From positions 297,356-361,355 of the forward strand of contig JBFMCV010000003.1 in assembly GCA_040754335.1 (NCBI GenBank): a stretch of DNA of 64,000 nucleotides, given 5' to 3'. Made by a program: the position numbers and the translations under genes. Within the stretch, counting starts at the first letter, position 1. Each line of letters begins with the position of its first letter. Below, in pieces: positions 27,807 through 56,123 of this stretch. The stretch comes from Thermodesulfobacteriota bacterium. GTDB lineage: Bacteria; Desulfobacterota_D; UBA1144; Nemesobacterales; UBA2774. The notes below the pieces were generated by a model. It was given only the letters and a program-made list of their open reading frames with translations. It searched no databases and was not told the origin of the DNA.

Positions 27807-28820
27807 CTAATGACCGAAATTCCTGCTTATCATAGCCGCGACATCGTAGCTGAAATACAGGGAAGACAGGAAATACCCCATAGCCACGGCCACGAAGGGT
27901 ATGACGAACCAGAAGAACGCTATCCTGACCACATGGCGGTTCTGTGCCGTAACGGAAAATCCCTGCTGTGCGAGAGAGAACCCTATTATTCCGGACGTTA
28001 CGATCTCCGCGAGCGATACGGGGACGCCGAAGAGCGAGGCCACCAGGATGATTGCCGCCCCCGTAAACTCGACCGAGACCGCCCTCAATATGCAGATCTC
28101 TGTGATTTCCTTGCCGACGCTGTCGAGGACCCTGCCGCCGAAAAGTATGGCCCCCACGCCCATCGCGGCTCCGGCCATTACCGCCCCGGCGCTTGCGTTC
28201 ACGAGCCCCAGGCCCACGAGCGGCCCGACGGAATTTGCAGAATTGTTCGCTCCGGCGGAAAAGGCGACGAACACGCCCGACATGGTTATCAGGATTGAAA
28301 GTATTTTATTTATGCTCCCCTCCGAGTACCTGTCCGTCAGGAACTGCAGCGTTCTCAAATACAGGTGCTTGGCGATGAGGTAATTCACCGTGAGCGCCAC
28401 GAGAGGCGTTATAACCCACCAGATGACGATCTCGAAAAATTTCTCGCCGTTCAGCGATTTCGAGTAGAGGCCGACCCCCACTATCGCGCAGACTAGAGCG
28501 TGAGTGGTGGCCACCGGAACGCGGGATATGTTCGCCCATGATATAAAAATAATCGCGATGAGGAAGATGATTATCACGAGTCCGATGTGGGTTGAGAAAA
28601 TCGTCCCGGGGACAAGGCCGTTCCCGAGTGTTTTAACTACGGGCGTGCCGGCGAGTAGCGCCCCCAGCACGGCAAATATTGCAATCATTACGGTCGCTTC
28701 CCTTTTCGTTCTCACGCCGGCGCCGTAAGCCGTAGCCATGGAAGCCGCCGAATTGTTCGCACCGATGTTAAGGGCCAGGAATGCGGATAGAACGATAGCT
28801 ATAGGAAGGACTAAATCCAA
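27807..28820 (-). CDS. pitA: PiT-family inorganic phosphate transporter (337 aa)
   Basis: An integral membrane symporter for phosphate. The family's duplicated signatures are visible: GANNSAASMATAYGAGV near residues 21-37 and SAGANNSANSVGPLVGLG in the second half, with about ten hydrophobic segments. The length fits the short Pit form without a large central loop. A PhoU-like partner (TIGR00153) often accompanies Pit genes but none is adjacent. It is divergent from the activator gene at 29011 with 190 bases between. Confidence 0.92.
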   Translation of the reverse strand: MDLVLPIAIVLSAFLALNIGANNSAASMATAYGAGVRTKREATVMIAIFAVLGALLAGTPVVKTLGNGLVPGTIFSTHIGLVIIIFLIAIIFISWANISRVPVATTHALVCAIVGVGLYSKSLNGEKFFEIVIWWVITPLVALTVNYLIAKHLYLRTLQFLTDRYSEGSINKILSILITMSGVFVAFSAGANNSANSVGPLVGLGLVNASAGAVMAGAAMGVGAILFGGRVLDSVGKEITEICILRAVSVEFTGAAIILVASLFGVPVSLAEIVTSGIIGFSLAQQGFSVTAQNRHVVRIAFFWFVIPFVAVAMGYFLSSLYFSYDVAAMISRNFGH

Positions 28821-29010
28821 AGGGTAGTCTCCGTATGAATTTGAGGCATATGGTTTTGATTATAAAGTATCGTAAATCGATGCAAATTAAGTGCCATGAT
28901 AAAAAATCGTGTAGTTAAGGGCTATATGCGTGATCCGCCTGTCCTCACCTTGATTAACGGGTAATCACTCCGTATATTTTTGTTACAGCTACGAGGGAGA
29001 TATTATATCC

Positions 29011-30408
29011 ATGACAGGCAAAGTTTCAATTTTAACCGGGGACGAGGGCCTGGTAAAAGAAATAGAAGATATCCTGGGAAAGGGCTCCGTCGAGGTCTTT
29101 TCCCGCGCCGAGGACATAAAAGACGCGGACGTGGTTCTTCTGGATGCGGATACGTCCGGCATCAATAATCTGGCCAGGTTAAAGGATAAACATTTCGTAA
29201 TAGTCATTACAGCCGAAAAGGGTACCAGGTACCTGATCGAATCGATGACGTTCGGCGCGTTCGACTGCGTATTCAGGCCTCTCAAGAACTCAGCCCTGTC
29301 TGCATCGCTCGAAAGGGCATTAGGCATAAGAGAAGAGATCAACGGCCACCTGGTCGAGTTCCACGGGAACCCGCAGGGCTCAAGCGTAACGTGCGCGATC
29401 GTGGGGGACTCGCCCATGCTCCAGGAGGTGTGCAAGCTCATAGGACAGGTCGGGAGAGTGGACGTCCCGGTGCTCATAACCGGAGAGAGCGGGACGGGGA
29501 AGGAGCTGGTCGCGGAGTCCATATGGAAGGTGAGCACGAGGTGGGAAAAACCATTCGTCGTGCTTAATTGCGCCGCCATCCCCGAAACCCTTCTGGAGGC
29601 GGAGCTCTTCGGTTACGAGAAAGGAGCTTTTACGGGGGCTTCGGCATCGCGTACAGGTAAATTCGAAGAGGCCGACGGCGGGATTATATTCCTCGACGAG
29701 ATCGGCGACATGCCGTTTTCACTCCAGGCGAAGGTGCTGAGGGTGCTCCAGAGCGGCACCTTCCACAGGCTCGGCTCCAATAAGGAGATATCGGTTGACG
29801 TCAGGATCATTACGGCTACGAATAAAGACCTCGAAAAGGTGGTGAGGGAAGGGAAGTTCAGGGAGGACCTCTATTTCCGCATAAACGTCGTGAGGATACA
29901 CCTGCCCGCGCTCAAGGAGCGGAAAGAGGACATACCCCTCCTTTCCGAGTGCTTTACGAGGAGACACAGCACGCAGATAGGAAAGGAGATAAAAGGGGCG
30001 ACGAGAAAGTTTCAGGCGGTCCTCATGGAATACGACTGGCCGGGCAACGTGAGGGAGCTTGAAAACGCGATCAGAAAGGCAATAGCGTTCACGAAAACGT
30101 CCTATCTCACTTCCTACGACCTCGACCTCCGGAGCAAACACAAGACGGTGAAACAGGCCGGCAATTTATCGTTCAAGGACGCTCTCAGGAGCTCCGTCAA
30201 AACCCTGCTCGGCTCGGATAGCGAGGAGAACATATACGATAAGGTCGTCAGGGAAGCGGAGATGGTCCTGCTAGTGGAAGCACTTGACGCGAGCGGGTGG
30301 AACCGTTCCAAAGCGGCAAGGAGACTCGGCATAAACAGGCTCACGCTCAGGCGGAAGCTGGAAGAATACAAGATCGGGGATGATTCGGGACACGTTGAAA
30401 CGGACTGA
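29011..30408 (+). CDS. NtrC-family sigma-54 activator with a degenerate receiver domain (465 aa)
   Basis: The N-terminal 110 residues resemble a response-regulator receiver: D45 in VVLLDADTSG sits at the phosphorylation position and VIVITAE gives the conserved Thr. However, only one acid (D11) is left of the usual pair and the Lys of the KPF motif is Arg (FRPLK), so phosphorylation is doubtful. The AAA+ core has Walker A GESGTGKE, the sigma-54 contact GAFTGA, IFLDEIGD, and WPGNVRELEN. The Fis-type HTH is GWNRSKAARRLGINRLTLRR. No sensor kinase is next to it. Ribosome site GAGGGAG lies upstream of ATG 29011. Confidence 0.9.
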   Translation: MTGKVSILTGDEGLVKEIEDILGKGSVEVFSRAEDIKDADVVLLDADTSGINNLARLKDKHFVIVITAEKGTRYLIESMTFGAFDCVFRPLKNSALSASLERALGIREEINGHLVEFHGNPQGSSVTCAIVGDSPMLQEVCKLIGQVGRVDVPVLITGESGTGKELVAESIWKVSTRWEKPFVVLNCAAIPETLLEAELFGYEKGAFTGASASRTGKFEEADGGIIFLDEIGDMPFSLQAKVLRVLQSGTFHRLGSNKEISVDVRIITATNKDLEKVVREGKFREDLYFRINVVRIHLPALKERKEDIPLLSECFTRRHSTQIGKEIKGATRKFQAVLMEYDWPGNVRELENAIRKAIAFTKTSYLTSYDLDLRSKHKTVKQAGNLSFKDALRSSVKTLLGSDSEENIYDKVVREAEMVLLVEALDASGWNRSKAARRLGINRLTLRRKLEEYKIGDDSGHVETD

Positions 30409-45063: not shown

Positions 45064-45102
45064 TGTGTAAACGCACACAGCAGGGATGTGTAAATTTACA
45101 CA
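45064..45102. promoter_or_regulatory. Tandem palindromic operator, candidate enhancer-binding sites
   Basis: TGTGTAAATTTACACA (45087-45102) is a perfect 16-bp palindrome. TGTGTAAACGCACACA (45064-45079) is an imperfect copy in the same frame, 23 bases upstream centre to centre, about two helical turns. They lie roughly 100-135 bases before the predicted sigma-54 start, the usual place for NtrC-type activator sites. Confidence 0.7.
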
Positions 45103-45172
45103 ATTGTGCAAAAATCCACCTCTTGTATTAACATAAGCCCCTGAATATACTTACTATTGGTACCACCTTCAA

Positions 45173-45189
45173 TTGGCATAAGACTTGCA
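45173..45189 (+). promoter_or_regulatory. Sigma-54 (RpoN) promoter
   Basis: TTGGCATAAGACTTGCA has GG and GC exactly 10 bases apart, TTGGCA at -24 and TTGCA at -12, differing from the consensus only at the C-G after TGGCA. Transcription would begin near 45200, about 250 bases before the GT2 gene. Confidence 0.75.
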
Positions 45190-45276
45190 ATAGATTATTA
45201 GCACATGCAAATAAAAGTACAGAAATTCGATGTTGCTTCATTTAAATTGGAGGCTTCAGCGGTTAAGAAGCACTGG

Positions 45277-45297
45277 TTATCATCCCTTCCATGATAA
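45277..45297 (+). other. Hairpin in the leader of the polysaccharide synthase gene
   Basis: TTATCAT-CCCTTCC-ATGATAA is a perfect 7-bp stem. No T-tract follows; it may affect mRNA stability. A weaker GCTTC/GAAGC stem lies just before it. Confidence 0.4.
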
Positions 45298-45451
45298 ACA
45301 GTTTAAAATCTGACGGTGTTGCTGCATTAAGTTAATTTCCGCTTTTAATCTAAAAACAGGCAAATTGATCGAGATTTAACGGGCAATGTGATGGGAAAAT
45401 CATACGCATATAAAAATAATTTACGGGTTCTGAAAGGAGGATCACACTCAG

Positions 45452-47359
45452 ATGTTTAATTTTGGTGAGTTAATTACAGCGGGCTATATATACGCGGCCG
45501 TGAGCTTCGCTCTTTCGGTTTTGCTTATAACCGTTAAAAACCTTATAGGCAAGGACAAACACTACTACAGCGTTCTCGAGTACGTGAACGTCAATATAGT
45601 AGCCGCGTTGATTATATGGGTACTGGGGTATTCCGTGCCGGACATTCTTCTACTCTCGGCGTTGAGCGTTACGACAATGCTTGTAGCCCACAGGGTGCTT
45701 AAAAACTTCACTATAGCGGGACGGCTCTTACTTGTAACTTACGCCCTCTTTTCACTCTTCGGAATGATCTGGGGATTCTGGTTCATTACATCGGTCGACG
45801 TAAGCACGGTCACGCGGGTGCTGATGTTCATCGGGTACCCGATCCTGTTCATGACCCTCTTCGGGGGGATAATCACGGCCTTCGAGCAGTGGGAAGTGCT
45901 CGGAAAGGTAAAATGGGAGAGACCCAACGCCCCCCTTCCCTCAGGTATGCTGAAACGTTTTCCGAAAGTGTGCCTCCAGGTGCCGGCCTATTCCGAGCCG
46001 CCGGACATCGTTATCGCAACTCTCGACAGCATAGCAAAGCTTAATTATCCGAACTTCGAGGTAATGGTCATAGACAATAACACCAAGGATCCTAACCTCT
46101 GGAAGCCTGTCGAGGCGCACTGCGCCAGGCTTGGGGAGAAGTTCAGGTTCTTCCACGTGGATCCTATTAAAGGCGCAAAAGCAGGCGCGCTTAACTTTGC
46201 TCTAAGGCACACGCATTCGGACGTGGAGATCATAGGCGTCGTCGACAGCGACTACCAGGTCGAGCCCGATTTCCTCGACCGTCTCGTCGGATATTTCGAA
46301 AACCCCGATATCGGCTTCGTCCAGACCCCACACGATTACAGGGAGTGGGGACAGAGCCTCTACCAGAGGATGTGCTACTGGGAATACAAATATTTCTTCG
46401 AGACGATCATGCCGAGTCTCAACGAGCGGGACGCGACCCTCACCGTGGGCACGATGTGTCTCATCAGGAAAAAAGCGCTCGAAGACGCAGGCGGCTGGGC
46501 GGAATGGTGCCAGACGGAAGATTCCGAGCTGTCCATACGTATCCATGCGGCGGGCTACTCCTCGGTTTATACGAACGAAACGTTCGGACGCGGACTCATA
46601 CCCGAAACATTCCTCGGCTACAAAAAGCAGCGTTTCAGATGGACATTCGGGCCTGTCCAGGAATTGAAGCGGCATTTCAGGCTCTATCTTCCGAAGTTCA
46701 TGTCCAAACCCTCGGCCATGACCACGCTCCAGAAAGTCCATCATCTGAACCACGGGTTCGGATACCTGAACTTGGGCGTAGGCTCCCTGTTCATTCCGTT
46801 CGGGCTCGCGGCGATGGTATCTATGGTGCTGCACCGTGAAGTTATAAAAGTGCCCGAGGCCATGTGGATCACATCACTTATCGTACTGGTATGCGGGTTC
46901 ACGCTAAGATGGCTGACGTACCACGTATACCTAAAGTGCCCGCTCAAGGACACGATAGGCGCGTTCATCGCGAACAGCGCACTGACACATACTTACATAG
47001 TGGCGAGCATATCGTGCATGTTCAAAAACGAGATAGCCTGGCAGAGGACGAACAAATTCAAAGAGCTTCCTCTGGGACTGGGCGCCCTGAGCTCGGTGCA
47101 GGCGGAAACTATTATCGGAATCCTGATCCTCGCCCTGGGCGGAGTTTCATTCTTCTTGATCCCCAGCATGGGACTGCACTTCGTACTCGGCTCATTGATG
47201 ATGCTCAAAGGGCTCGAGTATCTTGCCGCGCCGGCTTTGGCGCTCCTCGCGGAGCACGAGCTGCAGAAATCCAGGGAATCGGAGCGTTTCGTTACGAAGC
47301 CCGTCCCTAGCAGCAGCGCGAACCAGTATCAGCCGATAAAGAGAAACATAACGAAATAA
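45452..47359 (+). CDS. Membrane GT2 glycosyltransferase, cellulose/beta-glucan synthase-like (635 aa)
   Basis: Four to five N-terminal membrane segments (to about residue 145) are followed by a processive GT2 domain and then further membrane segments (about 440-600). The D,D,D,QxxRW set is complete: VIDNN near 207, VVDSDYQ near 265, the acceptor-base TEDSE near 355 and KKQRFRW near 392-397. Relatives make extracellular beta-glucans such as cellulose or curdlan-like chains. No bcsB, bcsC or PilZ-type partner is adjacent, so the product is undefined. Ribosome site AAAGGAGG lies 11 bases before ATG. Its upstream region suggests sigma-54 control. Confidence 0.9.
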   Translation: MFNFGELITAGYIYAAVSFALSVLLITVKNLIGKDKHYYSVLEYVNVNIVAALIIWVLGYSVPDILLLSALSVTTMLVAHRVLKNFTIAGRLLLVTYALFSLFGMIWGFWFITSVDVSTVTRVLMFIGYPILFMTLFGGIITAFEQWEVLGKVKWERPNAPLPSGMLKRFPKVCLQVPAYSEPPDIVIATLDSIAKLNYPNFEVMVIDNNTKDPNLWKPVEAHCARLGEKFRFFHVDPIKGAKAGALNFALRHTHSDVEIIGVVDSDYQVEPDFLDRLVGYFENPDIGFVQTPHDYREWGQSLYQRMCYWEYKYFFETIMPSLNERDATLTVGTMCLIRKKALEDAGGWAEWCQTEDSELSIRIHAAGYSSVYTNETFGRGLIPETFLGYKKQRFRWTFGPVQELKRHFRLYLPKFMSKPSAMTTLQKVHHLNHGFGYLNLGVGSLFIPFGLAAMVSMVLHREVIKVPEAMWITSLIVLVCGFTLRWLTYHVYLKCPLKDTIGAFIANSALTHTYIVASISCMFKNEIAWQRTNKFKELPLGLGALSSVQAETIIGILILALGGVSFFLIPSMGLHFVLGSLMMLKGLEYLAAPALALLAEHELQKSRESERFVTKPVPSSSANQYQPIKRNITK

Positions 47360-50319: not shown

Positions 50320-51615
50320 TTATCCCGCCTTTTCCAGCGCCTGATCTATATCTGCGATAATGTCGCTTATATGCTCGATCCCCACGGAGAGACGGACGAA
50401 GTCCGGAGTCACGCCCGTCGAAAGCTGCTCCTCGGGAGATAGCTGCTGGTGCGTGGTCGTGGCGGGATGAATTGCGAGTGTCTTCGTATCACCTACATTC
50501 GCCAGGTGCGAGATCAGCTGTAGCGAATCGATGAATTTCCGCCCCGCCTCGAGCCCGCCTTTGATACCGAAGCCCAGTATCGCGCCAGAACCCTTGGGCA
50601 GGTATTTGGCCACCCTCTCCTTCTCGGGGCTGTCGTCGAGCCCAGGATAATTGACCCACGCCACCTTCGGGTGCTCCTTCAGGTGCATCGCAACTGCAAG
50701 CGCGTTCGCCGAATGTCGCGGCATGCGGAGGTGAAGCGTTTCGAGTCCCTGCAGGAAAAGGAAAGCGTTAAACGGAGAGACGGCCATCCCGAGGTCCCTT
50801 AAAAGTGTGACTCGAGCTTTTATAATATAAGCGATATTGCCGAGCGGTTTTAAAGCTTCAATAAAATCTATCCCGTGATAGCTCGGCTCCGGCTCCGATA
50901 TGAGGGGAAACTTCCCGCTGTCCCATTCGAACTTGCCTGAATCTACTATGACTCCGCCGATGCTCGTCCCGTGGCCTCCGATAAATTTCGTCGCCGAATA
51001 GACAGTAATATCCACTCCGAAATCAAACGGCCTCAATAAGTACGGGGATACCGTATTATCAAGAACGAACGGTATCCCGTTTTTGTGAGCCACGCCGGAG
51101 ATACCTTCGAGGTCGGCCACGTCGAGCTTGGGATTACCTATGGATTCGGCATAGACTGCTTTCGTTTTCTGTGTAATTGCTTTTTGAAGTGCCTTTAAAT
51201 CGTTCGACTTTACGAACTTTACGGTTACCCCGAGGCGCGGGAAAGTGTAATGGAACAGGTTATAAGTCCCTCCGTAGAGGTTGTCCATGGATACGATCTC
51301 ATCCCCTGCCTGCGCTATGTTGAGGAGCGCCATAGTCGTAGCGGATTGTCCGCTCGAAACTGCAAGGGCTCCGACTCCGCCGTCCATAGCGGCTATCCTT
51401 TTCTCGAATGCGTCCTGCGTCGGGTTCATGATCCTCGTATAGATGTTCCCGAACTCGCGCAGCCCGAAGAGATTCGCGGCATGTTCCGTGCTCTTGAACT
51501 GGTAGGATGTGGTCTGATAGATGGGGAGCGCCCTCGCCCCGGTCGCGGGGTCGGGCTCCCACCCTCCGTGGAGAGCGAGCGACTCTACTTTAAGCTGACT
51601 ATCGATCTTACTCAT
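50320..51615 (-). CDS. metY: O-acetylhomoserine sulfhydrylase (431 aa)
   Basis: A PLP enzyme of the Cys/Met gamma family that makes homocysteine from O-acetylhomoserine and sulfide. Signatures are [38 protein letters not shown], the PLP Lys near 209 in [17 protein letters not shown] and [17 protein letters not shown] at the end. The length is right for MetY, longer than MetB/MetC. ATG 51615 has AAAGGAG seven to eight bases upstream. First gene of metY-metX-metW. Confidence 0.95.
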
Positions 51616-51975
51616 TCACATACTCCTTTGGTCTCATTTTATTTTTTATCTTAATCGGGTTTGATAAAAATGTCGAGATAGTATCCATGCCTCGAAACCA
51701 GACCCGTCCTCATGCGCCCAAGCCGCAGCAATATCTGTTGATTGCACGAGATTATATCATAGAAAAATAGGGCAATCACCATGCCAATTGCTACAAATTG
51801 ATATAATTCCAAGGAGTTGCGCTTCGACAAGACGCATGATTACAACCTAATGTCACGCCACTCCGGGTCATTTAGTTACCATTTGTATAATTCTTATGCA
51901 CAAGGAACCGGATATCATGGGAACCCCGCAATCATGCAGGGAGGACAACAGTAGAGGAGGCATTGCCTATTTCGC
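51616..51975. other. 360-base spacer with the metY leader
   Basis: No gene seen. It holds a candidate minus-strand promoter (51751-51779) and a leader of about 130 bases before metY. I searched the leader by eye for SAM-I, SAM-II and related riboswitch cores and found none. Confidence 0.5.
51751..51779 (-). promoter_or_regulatory. Promoter of the metY-metX-metW operon
   Basis: On the minus strand a perfect TATAAT (51756-51751) with GTGATT (51779-51774) 17 bases upstream. The -35 matches only three of six consensus bases. Confidence 0.45.
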
Positions 51976-53562: not shown

Positions 53563-54621
53563 ATGACGAAAAAAGTTAATTTCGAGGAAATATTCGATTC
53601 GTTACCGGAATCCATAATCATTATAGACAAGGACCTACGCGTGCTCGATATGAACGACAACGCCGAGAGCACTTTCAGGATTTCCAGGGAAAAGGCCAGG
53701 GGACAGCATTCGAGGGCATTCATGCCCGAAGGGATCGACCAGGTCGCGCTAATGGCGATGGGCGAGGGCAGAACCGTAATCGGCGATGAGATTAAACCTA
53801 CGCTGAGGAGCGGCGAGCGCATCTCCATTCAGGCCGTCGCTTCCCCGCTCTTCACGAGCGACGGGGACCTCAAGGGGGCGATAGTGCAAGTCAAGGACAT
53901 GTCCGGCACGAAGTTCCTAAACAGCAAGAGCATACAGGAGATATCGGCGTCCAAGTTCGAGAACCTCGTGCTGGGGCTCGCTCACGAGCTCAAAAACCCG
54001 CTCAGCGGTATAAGGGGGGCGGCTCAGCTCCTGGCCGAAGACGCTCCGAACAAGGAGACGCTTAAATGCGCCGAGATCATAACGAAGGAAGCCGACAGGC
54101 TGAGCGCCCTTCTCAACACGCTCAAGCAGCTTGAGCCGTTCGCCGAAGAGGTATTCGAGCTTATAGACATACACGAGCTGCTTATGGAAATCATATACCT
54201 CGAATCGATGTCCAAAGCGGGAAATCGGATACAGTACAAGCAGAATTACGACGTCACGATACCGCCCATACACGGCGACAGGAACTCGCTTAAGCAGGTG
54301 TTCCTCAACCTTATTAAAAACGCAGCCGAGTCTATCCCGGGCAAAGGACAGGTCGAGGTTTCCACCAGATGGATCACAGAGCACAAGCTCAAGGGACAGA
54401 ATTCGATGGCTGTCGAGATAAGGGATAACGGAAGCGGGATATCTCCGGATTCGCTGGAGAAAATATTCAACCCCTTTTATACTACTAAAAAAGAAGGGTC
54501 GGGTCTCGGACTCTTTCTGGCGTATCAGATTATCGCCAAGCACGGCGGAGCGATCTTCGTCGACAGCGAGGTCGGTACCGGTACGACGGTCAAGGTGTTC
54601 CTGCCTATATCCGGAGTATAA
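53563..54621 (+). CDS. NtrB-like PAS-domain sensor histidine kinase (352 aa)
   Basis: A soluble two-component kinase: no membrane segment is present. A PAS domain (about 8-115: LPESIIIIDKDLRVLDMNDNAEST) is followed by the HisKA helix with H141 in GLAHELKNPLSGIRGAAQLL, and the ATPase domain with VFLNLIKNAAESI (N box), IRDNGSGISPDSLEKIF, FNPFYTTKKEGSGLGLFLAYQI. This layout matches NtrB/GlnL. It lies 65 bases before an NtrC-type partner. Whether it senses nitrogen through PII is an inference; glnB or glnA is not in the window. Confidence 0.9.
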   Translation: MTKKVNFEEIFDSLPESIIIIDKDLRVLDMNDNAESTFRISREKARGQHSRAFMPEGIDQVALMAMGEGRTVIGDEIKPTLRSGERISIQAVASPLFTSDGDLKGAIVQVKDMSGTKFLNSKSIQEISASKFENLVLGLAHELKNPLSGIRGAAQLLAEDAPNKETLKCAEIITKEADRLSALLNTLKQLEPFAEEVFELIDIHELLMEIIYLESMSKAGNRIQYKQNYDVTIPPIHGDRNSLKQVFLNLIKNAAESIPGKGQVEVSTRWITEHKLKGQNSMAVEIRDNGSGISPDSLEKIFNPFYTTKKEGSGLGLFLAYQIIAKHGGAIFVDSEVGTGTTVKVFLPISGV

Positions 54622-54686: not shown

Positions 54687-56123
54687 ATGAAAAAAAAGGT
54701 ACTCGTCGTAGACGACGAAGAAAGCATAAGGTGGGTGCTCGGCAAATGCCTGGAGAAGGCGGGCTACACGGTCCGTTATGCCGATAACGGGGCGAAGGCC
54801 GTCGAGAGCGCATCGTCGGAAGGTTTTTCCTCGATAATCCTCGACATCACAATGCCCGATATGAGCGGCTTCGACGTGCTGAGGGAATTCAGGTCGCGAG
54901 GGATCAATCCGCCTGTAATCATTATCACCGCTCAGAACACGGTCAAGAACGCAATAGACGCCATGAAGCAGGGCGCGTACGACTATATAGCCAAGCCGTT
55001 TGACCTCGACGAGGTCAAGCTCACCGTACAGAGGGCCATAGACAGCTACGAGAACTCGAAGAAGCTCGAGATGCTCAGGGCGGAATCCGGAGAAGCGGAT
55101 TCCCTCCAGGACATCGTCGGCAAGTCCCAGGTCATGCTCAACATATACAAGATGATAGGCAGGGTAGCCGAGCGGGACATTACGGTGCTCGTAGTCGGTG
55201 AGAGCGGGACCGGCAAGGAGCTCGTGGCGCGGGCCATACACCAGAACAGCATGAGGAGGGACGGAAAGATGGTCGCGGTCAACATAGCGGCCATTCCGAA
55301 GGAGCTCCTCGAAAGCGAGCTTTTCGGCTACGAGAAAGGAGCCTTCACAGGGGCCTCTCTCCCCAAACAGGGGAGGTTCGAGGAAGCCCACAAAGGCACT
55401 CTGCATCTCGACGAAATCGGCGACATGCCGCCCGAGCTCCAGACGAAGCTTCTCAGGATACTCGAGGAGAGGAAATTCTACAGACTCGGAAGTGAAAAAC
55501 CCACTCCCGTCGATGTCCGGATAATAGCGTCGACGAACAAGAACCTCGAGAAAGAGGTGGCCGAAGGCAGGTTCAGGGAGGACCTTTACTACAGGCTGAA
55601 CGCGATCACGATCGAGATACCGCCGCTCAGAAAAAGAATAGAAGACGTCGTGCCGCTCATCGAGCATTTCCTCAATAAATACTCGCGGGAGCTGGGCGTA
55701 GCCAAGAGGACAATATCCGACGAAGCAAAAGAGCTCGTGCTAGGCTACAGTTGGCCCGGCAACGTCAGGGAGCTTGAGAACATAATCAAACGCGTCCTCG
55801 TGCTGACGTCCGACAGCGTAATCACGAGAGAGACCCTTATCGAAGCCGCCCCCCATCTCGAAGGCAGGGCGAGGAAGGAACAGGAATCGTTCGATCAGCT
55901 CATCACCAACGAGGTCAATTTCCTTATGGAGGCCGGGGGCACGGAGACCGATGGGCATATCCACGATATAATCATCAGAAAGGTCGAGAAACCCCTCATT
56001 GAAGCCGTACTCAGGATTACTAACGGGAACAAGAAAAAGGCCGCCCAGATACTGGGCATCAACAGGAATACGCTTTCAAAAAAGATGGAAGAGCTGGGTC
56101 TCGAGGGCAAAGACACGGATTAA
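54687..56123 (+). CDS. NtrC-like sigma-54 response regulator (478 aa)
   Basis: An intact receiver (D9, D10, phosphosite D53 in ILDITMPDMSG, Thr in IITAQN, Lys in AKPFDLDE) precedes the AAA+ domain: GESGTGKELVARAI, GAFTGA, LHLDEIGDMP, RLNAITIEIPPLRKR and WPGNVRELENII. The HTH at the C-terminus is NKKKAAQILGINRNTLSKKMEELG. It activates sigma-54 promoters when phosphorylated, most likely by the kinase upstream. No rpoN gene is in view. Confidence 0.93.
   Translation: MKKKVLVVDDEESIRWVLGKCLEKAGYTVRYADNGAKAVESASSEGFSSIILDITMPDMSGFDVLREFRSRGINPPVIIITAQNTVKNAIDAMKQGAYDYIAKPFDLDEVKLTVQRAIDSYENSKKLEMLRAESGEADSLQDIVGKSQVMLNIYKMIGRVAERDITVLVVGESGTGKELVARAIHQNSMRRDGKMVAVNIAAIPKELLESELFGYEKGAFTGASLPKQGRFEEAHKGTLHLDEIGDMPPELQTKLLRILEERKFYRLGSEKPTPVDVRIIASTNKNLEKEVAEGRFREDLYYRLNAITIEIPPLRKRIEDVVPLIEHFLNKYSRELGVAKRTISDEAKELVLGYSWPGNVRELENIIKRVLVLTSDSVITRETLIEAAPHLEGRARKEQESFDQLITNEVNFLMEAGGTETDGHIHDIIIRKVEKPLIEAVLRITNGNKKKAAQILGINRNTLSKKMEELGLEGKDTD

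Follow-up and report, generated by a model that had tools for sequence, protein, structure and literature searches.

A gene for a cellulose-like GT2 synthase in the analysed window, a DNA stretch of 64 kb, appears to be driven by a sigma-54 promoter that is probably activated from tandem palindromes by a REC-AAA+-Fis-HTH regulator, the most likely candidate being the product of a gene outside the window, on C2 of genome G000. That a sigma-54 promoter with activator sites precedes the GT2 gene and has been conserved in evolution is, judging from sequence comparison, close to certain. The promoter element TTGGCATAAGACTTGCA (45173-45189, + strand), with GG at 45175-45176 and GC at 45187-45188, has the exact GG-N10-GC spacing that the original prediction had described and is kept in seven orthologues; the predicted transcription start lies at about 45199. 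Upstream of it lie a perfect palindrome, TGTGTAAATTTACACA at 45087-45102 (the proximal activator site), and the predicted imperfect copy, TGTGTAAACGCACACA at 45064-45079, which has three mismatches and begins 23 bp further upstream (neither site being assigned a strand). In the 64 kb these two are the only matches to the palindrome at up to three mismatches, where 0.04 would be expected, and two matches were obtained in 0 of 100 shuffles. A weak third site of doubtful role, TGTGCAAAAATCCACC (45105-45120, likewise unstranded), has only its TTGTG half in common with some relatives. The Shine-Dalgarno sequence AGGAGG of the GT2 gene (45435-45440, + strand) is present in all six orthologues of the window's own family (f1). 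Taken alone, the -24/-12 element is not significant within the window (6 matches at up to one mismatch versus 4.5 expected). Genome-wide, the pattern TGGCAYN5TTGCW occurs 32 times versus 3 times for the reversed control, and an rpoN gene could be identified (PF04552, E 8.7e-55), so that promoters of the sigma-54 type are genuinely present in this genome.

Both palindromes and the promoter are kept in five close relatives (G001, G002, G003, G005 and G009; GT2 proteins 79-91% identical), the distal site as TGTGTAAWTGCGCACA and the proximal one as GTGTN6ACAC, and much of the sequence between and around the sites has diverged. Conservation in close relatives and the presence of rpoN had been named beforehand as the tests on which the original prediction should stand or fall, and it withstood both. 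Two genomes of another family (G026 and G034; GT2 about 64-66% identical) have one clear TGTG-N8-CACA site and a GG-N10-GC element 112-113 bp apart. The GT2 gene of G028 (about 60% identical) is retained without palindromes or sigma-54 element. Immediately before this gene (L008, upstream of 1501) a TTGACA-N16-TATATT sequence can be seen by eye, an apparent promoter swap.

The joint pattern GTGTN6ACAC-N70-100-GGNAYN5TTGC, searched in 61 genomes, matched all 16 genomes of f1 and all seven of f4, a second Dadabacteria family, and only one of the 38 others (G042). The reversed control gave no match, and a spacer control with one extra base (GG-N11-GC) gave none in f1 or f4; a second search pattern, with matches in 27 genomes, gave a similar but noisier picture. 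The consensus of the 77 distinct sites is TGTGTAATATTACACA, in which G, T, G and C, A, C are dictated by the search pattern itself. Where sites are paired, their spacing is mostly 24 bp (23 cases) or 23 bp (6 cases), and sites generally lie about 85-125 bp upstream of the GG of the -24 region. Site-to-promoter distances show a periodicity of about 11.3 bp, although this statistic is inflated because orthologous promoters are not independent. At the window locus, a -24/-12 element of GG-N10-GC form conserved in orthologues is thus combined with palindromic sites in the range of about 80-150 bp upstream that are common to a regulon. The layout of an NtrC-type enhancer with an RpoN promoter, which had been proposed from this one locus, is borne out by the footprint, the rpoN gene, the genome-wide enrichment and the fixed geometry of a multi-gene regulon; the suggested genome scan for palindromes paired with GG-N10-GC elements in fact defines this regulon.

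Targets behind the matched promoters were retrieved and clustered, and recur across genera. They include an alternative sigma factor of RpoD-like type (14 genomes, among them G000 at C4:376315-377463), the GT2 synthase (8 genomes), a small secreted acidic protein whose gene neighbours that of the sigma factor (main cluster of 8), further small proteins that are secreted and about 110 residues long and, in five f4 genomes, a HAMP kinase/NtrC-type activator operon. Targets seen only occasionally include a LuxR-type response regulator and an RlpA-like protein with a lytic transglycolase domain. Regulon membership of the GT2 synthase, the sigma factor and the small secreted protein is very likely on the basis of these promoter sequences. 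A sigma-54 promoter thus stands before the gene of a sigma-70-family factor in 14 genomes; this factor scores below the cut-offs of the RpoS and RpoD models (in the RpoS test, 253 versus 378.7 and 394). In G000 (C4:375755-377700, L108) the gene of the RpoD-like factor adjoins that of a small secreted acidic repeat protein, and each has its own palindrome and sigma-54 promoter. In genus g2 the targets are GH5 cellulases with CBM2 and a CBM2 protein, and no close GT2 orthologue was found in this genus; its regulon promoters (L292, L291, L293, L294, L184) precede GH5 cellulases, with CBM2 where scanned.

The candidate regulator emerged from the five f4 genomes in which an operon encoding a HAMP-HisKA kinase and a REC-AAA+-HTH_8 activator lies behind regulon sites, an arrangement suggesting that the operon is autoregulated there. 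G000 encodes 13 full-length enhancer-binding proteins, among which the orthologue of the f4 activator (C2:243602-244975, 457 residues) starts 31 nt after the gene of its paired HAMP-HisKA kinase (C2:242239-243570). It has the composition of an NtrC-type regulator, with a REC, a sigma-54 AAA+ and a Fis-type HTH domain and a histidine kinase beside it. The clade of this C2-type activator comprises 22 genomes (support 99/98), and its recognition helix TREVLRYRMKK is invariant. Sites and activator occur together in 22 of the 61 genomes, sites without activator in two (G011 and the stray G042), the activator without sites in none, and neither in 37. Of the 23 genomes with the regulon, 22 thus encode the activator, which was found in no genome lacking the regulon; the exception is G011, where sites are present and no activator was detected. 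For this co-occurrence the Fisher p is 1e-14, a value that overstates independence since essentially two clades are involved. The C2 operon of G000 itself lacks the palindromes, so autoregulation is not general. On these grounds the product of C2:243602-244975 is probably the regulator that acts at the sites.

Two enhancer-binding activators and a kinase are encoded in the window, as originally predicted: a sigma-54 activator at 29011-30408, an NtrC-like REC-AAA-HTH activator at 54687-56123 and, upstream of the latter, a PAS-HisKA-HATPase kinase resembling NtrB/AtoS at 53563-54621 (all + strand). It had been supposed that the palindromes are bound by the product of 29011 or 54687, which would then control the GT2 gene. 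Both lie nearby, both have sigma-54 activator domains, and both are conserved in the four of four regulon genomes examined, including G013, whose only three activators are the C2-type protein and the orthologues of these two. However, orthologues of the 29011 type also occur in families f2, f3, f6 and f7, and those of the 54687 type in f6 and f7, all of them families that lack the sites. Since both types occur in families without the regulon, this part of the original prediction is probably wrong, and the best candidate lies outside the window. Moreover, the 29011 and 54687 genes lack regulon sites, whereas the C2-type operon has them in five genomes, and at each of the ten loci checked 29011 is divergent to the gene of a CysP-type permease, with a sigma-54-like promoter at eight of them, so that 29011 probably has another job. 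Control by either window activator, and with it a role for the 53563 kinase, is therefore considered unlikely.

Somewhat less probable still is recognition of the sites in G000 by a paralogous activator (C5:269930-271306), alone or together with the C2 protein. The paralogue is 62% identical, is likewise encoded with a HAMP kinase and has a similar helix-turn-helix (TRQVLRNRMIK versus TREVLRYRMKK), but its recognition helix differs at several positions, and members of its clade were detected in no more than five f1 genomes (G000, G002, G003, G006 and G009), whereas sites are present in 23. The palindrome also formally fits the NifA-type form, TGT-N10-ACA; the corresponding GAF-AAA-HTH protein of G000 (C3:21273) is disfavoured, since no reciprocal orthologue was found in G013 or G004, which have sites. 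CRP/FNR-type sites have the form TGTGA-N6-TCACA, which TGTG-N8-CACA superficially resembles, and a -24/-12 match is by itself not rare within the window, but a sigma-70 promoter with CRP/FNR-type sites and an accidental sigma-54 match is hardly credible, given that in 23 genomes the sites are coupled to an exact GG-N10-GC, at distances in phase with the helix, and that a one-base shift of the spacer abolishes all f1 and f4 matches.

The target of the window promoter (45452-47359, + strand, 635 residues) had been called a beta-glucan or cellulose-like synthase, and its cellulose-like GT2 character is supported by matches to Pfam GT2 families and by the catalytic motifs. The DxD, TED and QxxRW motifs of BcsA cellulose synthase are present as D265xD267, TED (355-357) and QRFRW (393-397), with key residues invariant in six orthologues, and its nearest solved relatives in the PDB are cellulose synthase (BcsA) structures. 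In common with BcsA-type enzymes it is thus a membrane GT2 protein with these motifs, but it differs in falling far under the CelA cut-off, in showing no PilZ domain and in being encoded by a single gene: the CelA/BcsA models gave scores below their cut-offs (136.5 versus 699.1 for CelA, and 91 versus 992), and a Pfam scan gave no match to a C-terminal PilZ (c-di-GMP) domain. The AlphaFold model (mean pLDDT 48) was too poor for a fold search. The best label that the sequence allows is that of a putative cellulose-like beta-glycan synthase. Its gene looks monocistronic, since 208 nt separate it from the start of the following one, an ORF with helix-hairpin-helix domains. Proteins of named Candidatus Dadabacteria assemblies match the GT2 protein with 90-91% identity; homologues with 48-55% identity occur in Gloeobacterales/cyanobacteria and in a Verrucomicrobia genome (L045-L049), a patchy distribution that suggests horizontal transfer. 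No similarity to plasmid DNA was found.

Between the promoter and the GT2 gene lies a micro-ORF of 29 codons, MQIKVQKFDVASFKLEASAVKKHWLSSLP (45205-45294, + strand), which reads ATG CAA ATA ... TGA and begins about 6 nt after the predicted start at 45199. Six genomes, belonging to two genera, have it in the same frame and at exactly the same length. In genus g1, dN is 0.015-0.10 and dS 0.25-0.65, and 12 of the 18 variable sites are third positions (p = 0.004); in the g3 pair alone this excess is absent (p = 0.38). Between the genera, the ORF retains MQI[KR] and WLS close to its two ends, encoded by different codons (TGG TTA TCA versus TGG CTG TCC). The two f4 GT2 orthologues have no obvious counterpart. 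This pattern of substitution makes it reasonably likely that the micro-ORF is translated, as a leader peptide or small protein. A riboswitch in the 5' leader was rejected, as an Rfam search of the leader matched no family and its folding was no better than that of shuffles (z = +0.9).

In the mechanism that we infer, with its binding, phosphorylation, transcription and polymer product, a signal would cause the HAMP-HisKA kinase to phosphorylate the C2 REC-AAA+-Fis-HTH response regulator. The phosphorylated activator would then occupy the paired palindromes from one side of the DNA helix, reach sigma-54 RNA polymerase through a DNA loop and open the regulon promoters of the GT2 synthase, the RpoD-like alternative sigma factor and the small secreted acidic protein; in sister lineages the promoters of cellulases and of the activator's own operon would also be opened. 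The outcome would be a cascade from sigma-54 to a sigma-70-family factor together with extracellular glycan remodelling. A more speculative extension, which we regard as possible but doubtful, is a two-tier matrix switch of Dadabacteria, in which the membrane kinase/sigma-54 activator pair turns on the beta-glycan synthase and the second sigma factor, and the nearly leaderless 29-codon ORF that opens the synthase message regulates the synthase through its peptide or its translation.

The closest parallel is PrsK/PrsR, a sigma-54 regulon of PEP-CTERM/exopolysaccharide genes in Proteobacteria (PMC1569441), in which a 17-nt activator motif, sometimes repeated, lies about 63 nt before the GG/GC promoter of mostly single genes, and whose regulator was likewise identified by matching the phylogenetic profile of the site. 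The two systems share a kinase with an NtrC-type regulator and the theme of extracellular polysaccharide, and by analogy the Dadabacteria architecture would work in the same way, but it falls outside that family: the C2-type activator scores 376.3 against a cut-off of 502.6 for PrsR (TIGR02915), and the kinase 110.9 against 300 for PrsK (TIGR02916). Moreover, the site is TGTG-N8-CACA here and a 17-mer ending in TTTACA there, and the targets here include a sigma factor and cellulases. In the Rrp2-RpoN-RpoS cascade of Borrelia burgdorferi (PMC4014564) a sigma-54 activator also switches on the gene for a second sigma factor, one of the sigma-70 family; the Dadabacteria factor, however, is below the RpoS and RpoD cut-offs, the lineage is unrelated, the other targets differ, and the Dadabacteria regulon has clear paired upstream sites. 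Response-regulator activators of sigma-54 exopolysaccharide/biofilm promoters are found in Desulfovibrio vulgaris as well (DVU0110 and DVUA0057; PMC4641369), a likeness of regulator type and target theme, and the targets reported there differ.

Since sigma-54 control of exopolysaccharide is established elsewhere, e.g. in Desulfovibrio, the kind of system is already known. For this lineage the regulon appears new, as had been anticipated, and so do the motif and the regulator: a full-text search of the literature at hand found no paper joining Dadabacteria with sigma-54, and regulation in these uncultured bacteria seems practically unstudied. What is gained is a predicted binding motif, a likely regulator with its kinase, and a set of targets conserved across two families, which turn a single promoter guess into a testable regulon tying an alternative sigma factor to the synthesis or breakdown of extracellular glycans. 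If true, it would add another cascade from sigma-54 to a sigma-70-family factor, far from Borrelia and with clear activator sites.

Apart from this regulon, the gene of the CysP-type permease in the window, divergent from the 29011 activator (region 27807-29011), has a sigma-54-like promoter of its own (28882-28896, - strand). Relatives from several families show the same arrangement of permease and activator, which points to a distinct sigma-54 regulon, perhaps connected with sulfur. A further sigma-54-like site, TGGCATGGTGATTGC (51772-51786, - strand), lies upstream of an O-acetylhomoserine sulfhydrylase gene (50320-51615) and possibly belongs to the same regulon as the permease.
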